From positions 1 to 64,000 of the forward strand of contig NZ_JAKZFR010000005.1 in assembly GCF_022808935.1 (NCBI RefSeq): DNA of 64,000 nucleotides, in the 5' to 3' direction. The stretch comes from Geothrix sp. SG200. Its GTDB lineage: Bacteria; Acidobacteriota; Holophagae; Holophagales; Holophagaceae. The position numbers were made by a program, and so were the translations under genes. The notes under the pieces are model-generated. The model was not told the origin of the DNA. It saw only the letters and a list, made by a program, of their open reading frames with translations, and made no database searches. This document shows positions 2,782-62,753 of the stretch, piece after piece; position 1 is the stretch's first letter; each line of letters opens with the position of its first letter.

Positions 2782-2982
2782 ATGAGCTACAAGATCAAGA
2801 GCCACAAGGGCGCCCAGAAGCGTTTCAAGAAGACCGCCGGCGGCAAGTTCAAGCGGGGCTGCTCGCACCAGCGCCACATCCTGACCAAGAAGACCGCCAA
2901 GCGGAAGCGCCAGCTGGACATGGGCGGGATGGTGGCCAAGGCCGACCAGAAGGCCGTCGCGGCGATGCTGCCTTACGCCTGA
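2782..2982 (+). CDS. rpmI: 50S ribosomal protein L35
   Basis: Small basic protein of the large subunit (66 residues). It starts [15 protein letters not shown] and contains the family segment [17 protein letters not shown] 2782 lies 7 nt after the infC stop with GAGGAAG before it, so the two are probably co-translated. A stop-proximal two-hairpin repeat begins 7 nt after its stop codon and separates it from rplT, which normally follows directly. Confidence 0.97.
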
Positions 2983-2989
2983 TTCTATT

Positions 2990-3100
2990 CCGGGGGTTCT
3001 CCTCGCAACGCATGCGTTGCAAGGATCTAAGGTCGCGCTCCGCTTCGCTGCGCGAACACCCCCGGACCCCCACGCCCTCGCAGGCTGAGCCTGCTCGGGC
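2990..3100 (+). repeat. Stop-proximal two-hairpin element, copy A
   Basis: Hairpin I runs 2990-3065: CCGGGGG pairs with CCCCCGG, enclosing a CGCGC/GCGCG stem. Relative to the other copies it carries a 34 nt insertion (3000-3033) that contains the perfect palindrome GCAACGCATGCGTTGC (3005-3020). Hairpin II runs 3074-3100: GCCC, tc, GCAGGC, loop TGA, GCCTGC, tc, GGGC. The element starts 7 nt after the rpmI stop, in the same orientation. Other copies are at 28244-28313 (minus strand), 55280-55360 and 61254-61330. Confidence 0.85.
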
Positions 3101-28234: not shown

Positions 28235-28272
28235 AAAGAAAAAGCGCGGAACGGGCTTTGCCCGTGTCGCGC
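28235..28272 (-). terminator. Rho-independent terminator after purH (hairpin II of repeat copy B)
   Basis: Read on the minus strand, GCGCG (28272-28268), an internal loop, ACGGGC, loop AAA, GCCCGT and CGCGC (28248-28244) are followed by TTTTTCTTT (28243-28235). It is both the second hairpin of the repeat element and a plausible intrinsic terminator between purH and alaS. Confidence 0.7.
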
Positions 28273-28313
28273 GTGGGGGCTCCGGGGGTGTGCGCGCAGC
28301 GCGGAACCCCCGG
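28244..28313 (-). repeat. Stop-proximal two-hairpin element, copy B
   Basis: On the minus strand hairpin I (28313-28282) reads CCGGGGGTTCCGCGC, then GCGCGCACACCCCCGG; it is about 10 nt shorter in the apical part than copies C and D. Hairpin II (28272-28244) has the shared plan of outer stem, 2 nt internal loop, inner stem and AAA loop. It starts 6 nt after the purH stop codon and has purH's orientation. Confidence 0.82.
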
Positions 28314-28319
28314 ACAACC

Positions 28320-29864
28320 TCAATGCCTGAAGTGCCGCATGCCCGTGAAGAAGAGCCACACGCCGAGCTTCTGGGCGGCGGCGATGACTTCGTTGTCGCG
28401 CAGGCTGCCGCCGGGCTCCACGAAGGCTGTGACGCCGTGGCTGGCCGCCAGCTCGAGGCCGTCGGCGAAGGGGAAGAAGGCGTCGCTGCCAAGCACGGAT
28501 CCGCGGGACTTGGTGCCGGCCTTGCGGCAGGCGATCTCCACGGAATCCACGCGGCTCATCTGGCCCGCGCCGATGCCCACGGTGGCGCCGTCCTTCACCA
28601 GCACGATGGCGTTGGACTTCACGGCCTTGGCCACGCGCTGGGCCAGCATGAGGTCCTCGGCCCGGGGTTTGGTGCCGGACCCGCTGGCCTTGACCTCCCA
28701 GTCCTCGAAGGGCACGAAGCCGTCGTCCGCGTGCTGGACCAGGTAGCCGCCGCCGATGGAGCGGGTGTCCAGGCCCTCGGCGGCCTGGGGCCAGTGGTCG
28801 GGGGTCTGCAGGATGCGGAGCTGCTTCTTGGCCGCGAAGACCTCCAGGGCCTCGCCGGTGAAGGCCGGGGCGAGGATCACCTCCCAGAAGGTCTGGGCCA
28901 TGACGCGGGCCACCTCGACGCCCACGGGCCGGTTGAAGGCCACGATGCCGCCGAAGGCGCTGACGGGGTCGCCGGCCTGGGCGCGCATGAAGGCTTCCAG
29001 CGCATGGGGCCCCTGTCCCACGCCGCAGGGGTTGTTGTGCTTGACGATGACGCAGGCCGGGGCCGGGAACTGCCAGACCAGCTTGGCGCAGGCGTCGGCG
29101 TCCAGCAGGTTGTTGAAGCTGAGCTCCTTGCCCTGGTGCTGGTGGCAGGCGGCCATGCCCTCCACCTTGCGGCCGGGCTCCACGTAGAAGGCCGCGGGCT
29201 GGTGCGGATTCTCGCCGTAGCGGAGGCCCTGCTTCTGCACCAGGTTCAGGCAGAGGTGGTGGGGAAGTTCCGCAGCCTTGCCGTGGGCCAGCTCCCGCTC
29301 CATCCAGCCGGCGATGGCGGCATCGTAGGCGGCGGTGCGACGAAAGGCCTCCAGGGCGCAGCGGCGGCGGTCCTCCAGCCCCCAGGCGCCGCCCTTGAGC
29401 TTCGCGAGGAACGGCTCGTACTGGTCGGGGCTGGTGAGCACGGTGACGGAGGCGTGGTTCTTGGAGGCGCTGCGGATCATGCTGGGGCCGCCGATGTCGA
29501 TCTGCTCGATGGCCTCGGCCGGCGTGACGCCCTCGCGGGCAATGGTGGCCTCGAAGGGGTAGAGGTTGATCACCACCAGGTCGATGGGATCGATGCCTTG
29601 GGCCTTGGCGTCCGCCACGTGCTCCGGCAGGTCGCGACGGTAGAGCAGGCCCCCGTGAATGCGGGGGTGCAGGGTCTTCACCCGGCCGTCGAAGCACTCC
29701 GGGGCGCCGGTGTAGGCGGCCACCTCCTGGGCCTCCAGCTTGGCCTCCTGCAGGGCGCGGAGGGTCCCTCCGGTGGCCAGGATGCGCCAGCCCTGCGCCA
29801 ACAGTCCCTTGGCCAGGGGCAGCAGCCCCGTCTTGTCGTACACCGAGATCAATGCCGTAGGCAT
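28320..29864 (-). CDS. purH: Bifunctional AICAR transformylase / IMP cyclohydrolase
   Basis: Performs the last two steps of purine synthesis: formylation of AICAR and ring closure to IMP. The 514 residues contain the MGS-like cyclohydrolase domain (about 1-190, starting MPTALISVYDKTGLLPLAKG, with ATGGT and FDGRVKTLHP) and the transformylase domain with the catalytic KHNNPCG and YGENPHQPA. ATG 29864 is preceded by GGGGGCGG on the minus strand. Upstream open frame is not conserved and is rejected. No other pur gene is adjacent. Confidence 0.97.
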   Translation of the reverse strand: MPTALISVYDKTGLLPLAKGLLAQGWRILATGGTLRALQEAKLEAQEVAAYTGAPECFDGRVKTLHPRIHGGLLYRRDLPEHVADAKAQGIDPIDLVVINLYPFEATIAREGVTPAEAIEQIDIGGPSMIRSASKNHASVTVLTSPDQYEPFLAKLKGGAWGLEDRRRCALEAFRRTAAYDAAIAGWMERELAHGKAAELPHHLCLNLVQKQGLRYGENPHQPAAFYVEPGRKVEGMAACHQHQGKELSFNNLLDADACAKLVWQFPAPACVIVKHNNPCGVGQGPHALEAFMRAQAGDPVSAFGGIVAFNRPVGVEVARVMAQTFWEVILAPAFTGEALEVFAAKKQLRILQTPDHWPQAAEGLDTRSIGGGYLVQHADDGFVPFEDWEVKASGSGTKPRAEDLMLAQRVAKAVKSNAIVLVKDGATVGIGAGQMSRVDSVEIACRKAGTKSRGSVLGSDAFFPFADGLELAASHGVTAFVEPGGSLRDNEVIAAAQKLGVWLFFTGMRHFRH

Positions 29865-53166: not shown

Positions 53167-55275
<2,109 letters not shown>

Positions 55276-55279
55276 CGTA

Positions 55280-55360
55280 GCGGGGGTTCCGCGCTCCGCT
55301 ACGCTGCGCGCACACCCCCGCACCCCCGCAACTCGACCCGGTAAAACCGGCTCTCGTTGC
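55280..55360 (+). repeat. Stop-proximal two-hairpin element, copy C
   Basis: Hairpin I (55280-55321): GCGGGGG pairs with CCCCCGC, enclosing CGCGC/GCGCG; the closing pair is G-C where copies A, B and D have C-G. Hairpin II (55328-55360): outer stem GCAAC/GTTGC, 5 nt internal loops, inner stem CCGGT/ACCGG, loop AAA. T-rich sequence follows. It starts 4 nt after the fusA stop. Confidence 0.85.
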
Positions 55361-60972: not shown

Positions 60973-61247
60973 TGGAAGCCACCACCACCAAGATGAAGCT
61001 CAAGAAGGGCGATCAGGTCGTCGTCATCGCCGGCAAGGAGAAGGGCAAGACCGGGACCGTCTCCAAGGTCAGCCCCGCCACCAACCGGGTGGTCGTCGCC
61101 GGCGTCAACATGATCAAGAAGGCCACCAAGCCCAATCCCCAGACCGGCGAGGGCGGCGGCATCGTCGAGAAGGAGGCGTCCATCCACGCTTCCAACGTCA
61201 TGCTCCTCGACGCCAAGACCGGCAAGGGCACGCGCAAGCGGGGTTGA
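60972..61247 (+). CDS. rplX: 50S ribosomal protein L24
   Basis: 91-residue assembly initiator with a KOW motif, [20 protein letters not shown], then [18 protein letters not shown]. It is one of the first proteins to bind 23S rRNA. Repeat copy D starts 6 nt after its stop and a 330 nt spacer separates it from rplE, which is usually adjacent. Confidence 0.96.
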
Positions 61248-61253
61248 TTCTCT

Positions 61254-61330
61254 CCGAGGGTTCCGCGCTCCGCTACGCTGCGCGCACACCCCCGGGCCCC
61301 CGCGTCCTCGGAGGCTGAGCCTCCTCGGAC
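61254..61330 (+). repeat. Stop-proximal two-hairpin element, copy D
   Basis: Hairpin I (61254-61295): CCGAGGG pairs with CCCCCGG apart from one A-C mismatch, enclosing CGCGC/GCGCG. Hairpin II (61304-61330): GTCC, tc, GGAGGC, loop TGA, GCCTCC, tc, GGAC. Compared with copy A two pairs differ by compensatory change (T-A for C-G in the outer stem, G-C for C-G in the inner stem). It starts 6 nt after the rplX stop. Confidence 0.87.
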
Positions 61331-61577
61331 CTACCTGATCGGGTGTTCCGGGACCCTGGAACCACCGCACCGCCTTTGAAATACAAGCTTTTGCCTTCCC
61401 AGGGGCCTTCGTTCATGGGAAGATCTTCGTTCTGTCCCGTGCGCGGGGCGGGAATCCACGGCGCATATCGCGCCATGACAACTGAGGTTGGGGGGAAACG
61501 GGCCGGACCGCCGTCCCAAGCCCCCCCGCCCTCCCGAACCCCTGGGGCATAGCCGCCCCACGGAAATGGAGGCATCC
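61331..61577 (+). other. Spacer between repeat copy D and rplE
   Basis: About 247 nt without a supported gene, interrupting the spc operon. It contains the hairpin GGCGC-ATATC-GCGCC (about 61459-61473) and TTGAAATACAAG (from about 61375), which offers a possible -35 box but no matching -10. It may hold a secondary promoter for rplE onward. Confidence 0.5.
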
Positions 61578-62141
61578 ATGACTGCCAAGCAGGACCACGC
61601 GGAGCCCCGCGTCAAGGCTCGCTACCACCAGGAGGTGGTGTCGAAGCTCAAGGAGGAGTTCGCCTTCTCCTCCGCCATGCAGGTGCCCCGCCTGCAGAAG
61701 ATCGTCATCAACATGGGCGTCGGCGACGCCATCCAGAACATCAAGGTCCTGGACGTGGCTGTTGACGAGCTGACCGCCATCGCCGGCCAGAAGGCCGTCG
61801 TGCGCAAGGCCAAGAAGAGCGTCGCCCAGTTCAAGCTGCGCGCCGGCATGCCCATCGCCTGCATGGTGACCCTGCGCGGTCCCCGCATGTGGGAGTTCTT
61901 CGACCGCCTGGTGACCCTGTCCCTTCCCCGCGTCCGCGACTTCCGCGGCGTGCCCACCAAGTCCTTCGACGGCCGCGGCAACTACACGCTGGGCCTCAAG
62001 GACCAGTTGATCTTCCAGGAGATCGACTACTCCAAGGTGGACAAGATGAAGGGCATGAACATCACCTTCGTGACCACCGCCAAGAACGACGCCGAAGCGC
62101 GGGCCCTGCTGGCCCACCTCGGTATGCCCTTCCGCAAATAG
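61578..62141 (+). CDS. rplE: 50S ribosomal protein L5
   Basis: 187-residue central-protuberance protein that binds 5S r[32 protein letters not shown] and the [13 protein letters not shown] region fit. ATG 61578 has GGAGG at 5 nt and is preferred over ATG 61566. The N-terminus has a short extra stretch, [14 protein letters not shown]. Confidence 0.97.
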
Positions 62142-62159
62142 GCTAAGGAGATCATACCG

Positions 62160-62345
62160 ATGGCCAAGATTTCCAAAATCGTCAAGGATTCGCGCAAGCC
62201 GAAGTTCTCGACCCAGCACCGCAACCGCTGCAAGTGCTGCGGCCGGCCCCGGGGCTTCATGCGCAAGTTTGAACTCTGCCGTCTGTGCTTCCGCAAGTTC
62301 GCCCTCAACGGCGAGCTGCCGGGCGTCCAGAAGTCCAGCTGGTAA
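62160..62345 (+). CDS. rpsZ: 30S ribosomal protein S14, zinc-binding (type Z)
   Basis: 61-residue S14 of the short form. Four Cys in CKCCGRPRG and [10 protein letters not shown] give the CxxC...CxxC zinc site, so this is the zinc-dependent type rather than the long C-minus form. It starts [18 protein letters not shown] and follows rplE by 18 nt. Confidence 0.96.
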
Positions 62346-62357
62346 GGAGAGGGGACC

Positions 62358-62753
62358 ATGCATACCGATCCCATCGCTGACTACCTCACCCGCATCCGCA
62401 ACGGCATCATGGCCGGTCACGATGCCGTGGTGGTGCCCGCCTCCAAGATCAAGGCCGGCCTCTGCGGCATCCTGAAGCAGGAGGGCTACATCCATTCCTT
62501 CAAGCAGGTGGAGCACGAGGGCCGCGCGTACCTCATCCTCAACCTCAAGTACGTGAAGGACAAGGAGAACGTGATCCACGGCCTGCGCCGCGTGTCCCGT
62601 CCCGGCCTGCGCATCTACTCCGGCGCGCAGGAGATCCCCGAAGTCCATGGCGGCCTCGGCATCGCGATCCTGTCCACCCCGAAGGGTCTCCTGACGGGCA
62701 AGGACGCCAAGAAGCAGAACGTCGGCGGCGAAGTCCTCGCCCACGTCTGGTAA
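62358..62753 (+). CDS. rpsH: 30S ribosomal protein S8
   Basis: 131-residue central-domain assembly protein and, in E. coli, repressor of the spc operon. [19 protein letters not shown] at the start and [19 protein letters not shown] with GGEVLAHVW at the end are typical. GGAGAGGGGA precedes the ATG. Confidence 0.97.

Follow-up and report, generated by a model that had tools for sequence, protein, structure and literature searches.

A probable new REP-like repeat family of Geothrix, docked at stop codons

Background

It has long been asked whether REP-like repeats are selfish or serve a purpose at stop codons and at the 3' ends of mRNAs. Mycobacterial MIRUs are dispersed repeats oriented like the genes they separate, at whose TGA/ATG junctions they lie, with insertion at DTGA. 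Inverted uptake-sequence terminators occur in Haemophilus and Neisseria.

As described in the passages of Di Nocera et al. (2013, PMC3733652) drawn on here, GTAG REPs are short, imperfect, intergenic palindromes with a tagged end, which in the two genomes plotted mostly lie less than 20 bp from ORF 3' ends and are said to supply TAG as the stop of a gene. The same passages describe CGTC REPs as having no linked transposase, stems of 8-9 bp with A-T at the first two positions, loops of 4-5 nt and CCA tails. For E. coli, the RepRanger sections consulted (PMC12306157) place 446 of 4,072 predicted REPs no more than 15 nt away from a stop and state, from earlier work, that REPs lower translation only when they lie less than 16 nt from it.

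The Geothrix repeat described here shares with GTAG REPs, as far as those passages characterise them (PMC3733652), the short palindromes, the tagged end, the intergenic location and the proximity to ORF 3' ends. It also resembles them in apparently offering a stop, but this stop is TGA, brought by a TGATGYTSTCC leader. GTAG is found in the 12-nt leader of none of the 59 copies compared and SG200 has no RAYT/Y1 gene, so that we do not count the repeat among the GTAG REPs. Moreover, GTAG REPs are often dimers according to the same source (PMC3733652), whereas by a loose pattern none of the 59 Geothrix copies has a partner on the other strand within 300 nt, and these copies are further distinguished by a spacing peak at 8 nt and a single orientation relative to the gene. 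Absence of a linked transposase is common to the CGTC REPs of that source (PMC3733652) and the Geothrix repeat. The four bases before the stem (with the first C counted in the tag) are CGTC, TGTC or CCTC in 18/59 copies and TCTC in 22/59, but a GC stem followed by an internal loop and an inner stem departs from the stem and loop described for CGTC REPs. Compared with the E. coli proportion given in PMC12306157, proximity to a stop is far more common here (51 of 59 copies). A literature search found no paper that pairs Geothrix with an intergenic repeat.

Four copies in the 64-kb window

The window, i.e. the whole stretch of 64,000 nucleotides of Geothrix sp. SG200 DNA that was analysed, contains four copies, here called A to D. 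Copy A follows rpmI (L35 Pfam match), whose TGA stop codon was read directly at 2980..2982 (+); its hairpin I (2990..3065, +; covariance-model match at 2981-3074) contains a nested hairpin insert of about 34 nt (about 3000-3033) and is followed by a C-rich linker read directly at 3066..3073 (+) and by hairpin II at 3074..3100 (+), whose inner stem GCAGGC/GCCTGC is backed by comparison of rpmI orthologs. Copy B lies on the minus strand behind the TGA of purH (28320..28322; Pfam AICARFT_IMPCHas), with hairpin I at 28282..28313 and hairpin II, then TTTTTCTTT, at 28244..28272. Behind the TAG of fusA (55273..55275, +; EF-G Pfam matches), copy C was assigned by direct reading, hairpin I extending over 55280..55321 (+), with its closing pair flipped to G-C, and hairpin II over 55328..55360 (+). 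Copy D follows the TGA of rplX (61245..61247, +; L24 Pfam match) and consists of hairpin I (61254..61295, +), a C-rich linker (61296..61303, +; direct reading) and hairpin II (61304..61330, +). For copies B and D, both hairpins rest on direct reading and folding, and hairpin I on a covariance-model match as well. According to our own gene caller, the ribosomal-protein cluster ends with rplX and is followed by a predicted convergent ORF at 61413-62744 (-).

The repeat core consists of the TGATGYTSTCC leader, hairpin I and GG-R-CCCCC. Hairpin I itself is a 7-bp GC stem (CC-GGGGG/CCCCC-GG) with an internal loop UUC/ACA and a short inner stem. Several claims of the initial annotation of this DNA could be read directly: 7, 6, 4 and 6 nt separate the stop from the first stem base at rpmI, purH, fusA and rplX; copies A and D differ by the paired changes GCCC/GGGC versus GTCC/GGAC and GCAGGC/GCCTGC versus GGAGGC/GCCTCC; and the closing pair of hairpin I is changed from C-G to G-C in copy C. 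The conservation of hairpin I in all four copies also stood, but not in its details, as copy A carries the nested hairpin inside and copy D has GAGGG instead of GGGGG, so that its outer stem contains a single A-C mismatch. When folded alone, copy B was more stable than its shuffles (z -4.28) and copy D no better than them (z -0.88). Neither the window copies nor six loci matched Rfam at gathering thresholds, and we rejected a known RNA family on these grounds.

A nested palindrome (CTCGCAACGCATGCGTTGCAAGGATCTA...) within hairpin I was seen at window positions 3000-3033 and at the loci L048, L055, L056 and L058. Its presence varies among orthologous rpmI copies (genomes G017 and G032 versus G014).

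Distribution in Geothrix and relatives

The covariance model R1, built from leader, hairpin I and linker and including the three stop-codon columns, gave 33 matches at E<=0.01 and 34 at E<=1 in the SG200 genome (3.36 Mb, 10 contigs). The four copies of the window are thus no special set. Thirty SG200 matches were read as sequence; four of these belong to tandem arrays as extra units, and the rest represent 26 separate loci. The repeat was detected in 47/47 Geothrix genomes searched, with 3-46 copies per congener, and in 7/30 genomes from the rest of the family, which gave 1-7 matches each, while the model search was positive in none of 23 genomes outside the family. In addition, an exact 30-mer of hairpin I, leader excluded, was matched against GTDB genomes and yielded 59 copies, all of which fall in Geothrix, Holophagaceae or Acidobacteria genomes. 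A REP-like repeat, mentioned at the outset as an alternative, is supported by this dispersal (33 matches in SG200, 47/47 congeners), and in the broad sense of short, palindromic, intergenic sequences with tens of copies per genome the repeat is REP-like.

Head-to-tail arrays were observed at G000:C7:27193-27532, G000:C7:199533-199731, G000:C1 near 982170 and G027:C97:19690-19973. In the SG200 arrays that were read, hairpin II is included in the repeating unit; the G027 array is known from match positions alone.

Docking at the stop codon

Because R1 includes the stop-codon columns, distances to the stop were taken from the leader-free pattern copies only. Genes were called with our own dicodon score, which mis-called some of them (rpmI, for example, was missed), and stops were therefore judged by ORF length and local score. 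In 51/59 copies, the stop of a coding-like ORF lies 5-14 nt upstream of GGGGG on the same strand, and in 30/59 at exactly 8 nt. Uniform intergenic placement at the same loci in either orientation, which likewise rests on our gene caller, predicts 4.0% (4-14 nt) and 0.38% (8 nt). Sorted by the DNA upstream of them, the 59 copies form 32 groups; at least one copy is stop-adjacent in 27 of these groups, and at least one has the exact spacing of 8 nt in 17. The near-fixed distance in gene orientation that had been proposed from the window is supported by these copies, most of which are docked rather than randomly placed.

In SG200, an ORF stop precedes the G run by 6-14 nt at 21/26 separate loci. 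The five loci without such an adjoining stop (L044, L048, L060, L061, L068), together with the 8/59 copies for which an adjoining gene stop is not proven, count against the explanation that we favour below. Four of these eight exceptions are located behind a terminator-like U-run (L115, L128, L132 and, with a partial copy between, L130), one (L141) lies within a tandem array, and in the three related copies L101, L106 and L112 the stop triplet at 8-9 nt belongs to a candidate gene only. In several copies at 12-14 nt (L138, L147, L155), another stop triplet lies in front of GGGGG at exactly 8 nt, as if an earlier stop had overtaken the repeat's own TGA.

The orientation of the repeat follows that of the gene, since in the L058 intergenic region of genome G007 the copy is on the opposite strand, where a 359-codon ORF has its stop 8 nt before it (L136). 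The repeat of the L050 intergenic region of the same genome is likewise on the opposite strand, the stop of the opposing gene being a candidate. Only 21/59 copies have an ATG overlapping the stop, which sets the repeat apart from the MIRUs as these are described and led us to reject a TGA/ATG mini-ORF as the rule. Stop-codon readthrough was set aside as well, because internal inserts of 10 or about 34 nt shift the frame past the stop.

The stop triplet

The stops called over all 59 rows, including the eight distant ones, are TGA (31), TAG (15) and TAA (13). We then compared the stops of 13 SG200-occupied loci in SG200 and eight congeners (51 occupied and 60 other sites; two rows that lacked a stop where one was expected were excluded), the classes being set by letter pattern and doubtful for the occupied rows L041 in G032 and L064 in G007 as well as for the other rows L065 in G032 (a collapsed derivative) and L042 in G025 (where the repeat starts two bases past the stop). 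TAG is the stop at 3/51 occupied versus 22/60 other sites (p 8e-5), TGA at 35/51 versus 27/60 (p 0.014), and the base right after the stop is T at 45/51 versus 9/60, with the reservation that the congeners are not independent. At rplX, the repeat is present in SG200 and G017 alone (2/8 genomes), where the stop is TGA, and all six congeners without it have TAA or TAG.

We read the 5' end TGATGYTSTCC as a sequence that may become the stop of the gene, and the rarity of TAG at occupied sites is in keeping with a TGA brought by the repeat. The repeat often still begins with TGA where the gene stop sits further upstream (L163 and L182 at fusA; G015, G017 and G023 at rpmI). Counting against this reading, two fusA loci of a longer-leader type (L160, L167) have CGA and CGG in place of the leader's TGA. 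At L050, TAA is the stop in all three occupied species and in 4/6 others, so that the gene's own stop seems to have been kept there. As the 5' end reads TGA and could serve as a stop, the fixed spacing need not mean a ribosome function.

Occupied and unoccupied orthologous sites

For fusA, we inspected 28 of the 30 loci from the 31 genomes with a match, leaving out two short weak matches (L185, L186): the repeat is present in 16, a variant or shortened form in two and another hairpin in nine, and one locus was unreadable. Among the best 30 rpmI loci from 40 genomes with a match, 18 have the repeat, two a collapsed form and ten none; in these ten, two other hairpins follow the gene, the second of which shares the inner stem GCAGGC/GCCTGC with hairpin II of copy A in 4/10 cases and differs in the rest. 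At L062, a hairpin AAGAGCCGGC...GCCGGCTCTT follows the stop after 3-5 nt in three of the five species that lack the repeat, and in the occupied species hairpin I lies between the stop and this same hairpin. From such pairs of sites it follows that the variable unit is leader, hairpin I and C-rich linker, joined at the stop. Hairpin II had been taken for a constant part of the element; as some sites that lack hairpin I nevertheless have hairpin II or its inner stem (L062, rpmI), it is not obligatory, and the supposed two-hairpin element is partly composite.

Shortened copies with a collapsed hairpin I, in which GGGGGTC runs directly into CCCCGC or a like sequence as though the stem had been cut through by a deletion, were seen at L253, L323, L329, L361 and L365.

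Selection on base pairing

The selection on structure that the initial annotation had suggested from copies A, C and D is borne out in larger samples. In 65 distinct hairpin I sequences, 95.8% of cells pair, and 35 double-sided cells compare with 5.1 in shuffles (0/500 reach this number) and 1-7 in slid controls; a second set of 36 gave nine versus 2.0. For hairpin II, 18 rpmI orthologs (17 distinct) contain 14 double-sided cells versus 4.9 in shuffles. Pair counts lean towards the model, to which both alignments, A5 (from 65 chosen loci, of which 64 gave matches) and A6 (from all 100 fetched stretches), were fitted, and double-sided cells count sequences rather than events; the C-G to G-C flip, for example (11 cells), comes mostly from the fusA lineage. 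Further pair types are only mildly above shuffles, being reached by 16/500, 49/500 and 141/500 of them for the 65 sequences, the second set of 36 and hairpin II, respectively.

The rpmI site illustrates the exchange of pairs in place. The closing pairs of hairpin I are CC/GG, CA/UG, UU/AA, and CU/GG or CU/AG, depending on the species, the second one being C-G, A-U, U-A or U-G, with U-G in G020 but U-A in G001, whose sequence is very similar. One outer pair of hairpin II is U-A, G-C, A-U, C-G or G-U across orthologs. Since both hairpins covary at orthologous sites, pairing seems to be selected in place. At the ten stem pairs of 100 distinct copies, G-U pairs (17) are barely more frequent than A-C pairs (11), so that selection on a sense-strand RNA is not singled out from selection on single-stranded DNA.

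Upstream genes, terminators and a mobilising enzyme

Three of the four window copies follow translation genes, but the upstream genes as a whole are not mainly translational: five of 20 upstream proteins scanned are (L24, L21, L35, EF-G, CysRS), 12 fall into Pfam families of other kinds, such as transporters, outer-membrane proteins, purH, SecD/F-type and Hsp20, and three gave no Pfam family; L067, a 21st, was left out. An exclusive link to translation genes was therefore rejected.

A U-run past hairpin II is present in copy B (TTTTTCTTT) and not in copies A, C and D. Scans with a terminator consensus reported none of the four window hairpins II as a terminator; one match overlaps part of hairpin II of copy A, with a score at shuffle level.

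A Y1_Tnp domain was not detected in the SG200 genome and is present in 5/41 congeners, the repeat being absent from the six Y1_Tnp loci fetched from the latter. A Y1/RAYT partner was rejected accordingly. By eye, we take the Y1 ORFs of L237 and L240 to resemble IS200-like ones.

Possible origin and function

The repeat docks, in the direction of the gene, at the stops of genes that are unrelated to one another; species differ in whether they have it at a given site, and double substitutions preserve its pairing. We think it probable, with some reserve, that it represents a new REP-like family of the genus Geothrix with unusually strict stop-codon docking, transcribed as an mRNA 3' structure, and we infer an effect on ribosomes or mRNA ends. 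In the transcript, the repeat would be the first structure of the 3' UTR, with its stem about 6 nt after the stop. Hairpin I could then meet the terminating ribosome, in which it would be like the stop-near E. coli REPs as reported in the RepRanger sections cited above (PMC12306157), and hairpins I and II together would form the 3' end of the message. Hairpin II may often be the gene's own older hairpin, against which counts that at L050, L056, L058, fusA and elsewhere it is mostly unrelated to the hairpin of unoccupied sites. Copies elsewhere would have been lost or never made, leaving the stop-docked ones and a minority behind terminator-like U-runs. A more daring proposal, which we consider improbable, is that the placement process senses the end of translation, either on the mRNA or on the DNA exposed at that point, and writes its own TGA as the new stop, making the repeat a mobile translation-termination module; every terminating ribosome of the captured genes would then have a hairpin at a set distance before it.

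Alternatively, though in our judgement this is the less likely course, the repeat could be purely selfish, joined to T-rich or TRA sites by an enzyme, perhaps one since lost, with stop codons and terminator U-runs as the least harmful targets and a hairpin needed as single-stranded DNA for copying, without a host role. Its presence and absence between species, the tandem arrays, the copies directly behind U-runs and the collapsed derivatives would all be expected of such a repeat, as would the occurrence of other palindrome families in the same slot and a leader TGA that persists even where the gene stop lies further upstream (fusA L163, L182; rpmI G015, G017, G023). Mobility alone, however, does not suffice for compensatory changes within one orthologous site, rpmI, unless copies are replaced by others, and the Y1_Tnp search of SG200 and 41 congeners, including six loci, gave no enzyme candidate. 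Domestication as a gene-end module, with hairpins I and II serving to terminate transcription or to block 3' exonucleases in the manner of the Haemophilus and Neisseria terminators, would explain why unoccupied sites mostly have another strong hairpin at the same place, why hairpin II covaries and why hairpin II of copy B is followed by TTTTTCTTT; yet copies A, C and D have no U-run there, the scans gave no hairpin-II terminator (the partial overlap at copy A being at shuffle level), and the hairpins that hairpin I precedes are found in some species where it is absent (L062, rpmI), which makes this reading doubtful at best. The conserved internal-loop letters UUC/ACA and linker, and the three of four window copies behind translation genes, might recall a true cis-regulatory RNA of translation genes that binds a protein or metabolite, but with diverse upstream genes, erratic occupancy between species and no Rfam match for the window copies and six loci we regard this as very improbable.

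The published dispersed palindromes with which we compared our preferred candidate, the stop-docked REP-like family, are only loosely tied to gene ends, whereas the Geothrix family is placed with near-base precision in one orientation, and it varies in presence at the same spot between species yet keeps its pairing. The combination of strict docking, presence or absence and kept pairing makes the question of selfish versus used REP-like repeats testable in cultured Geothrix, with the natural pairs of occupied and unoccupied sites as ready controls.

Other palindromes at the same gene ends

The slot right after the purH stop was inspected in the best 30 loci (L187-L216) from 39 genomes with a match. 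The repeat described here occupies 12/30 of them, a palindrome of the CACCAAGG or CACCACCAAGGCACCAAG type 8/30, CGCGAA repeats of the CGCGAATGACGCG type followed by a GxxExxY-like reading frame 4/30 (TIGR04256 was confirmed in two of these four, L194 and L215), a CTCGCAGAGG palindrome 2/30 and a simple hairpin 3/30; no hairpin was noticed by eye in 1/30. Judging from these sequences, several families of repeats seem to use gene ends as docking slots. Yet another type of palindrome, AACAGGATTAACAGGATT, lies shortly past the stop at L252 and L256 (locus L041 in G025 and G007).
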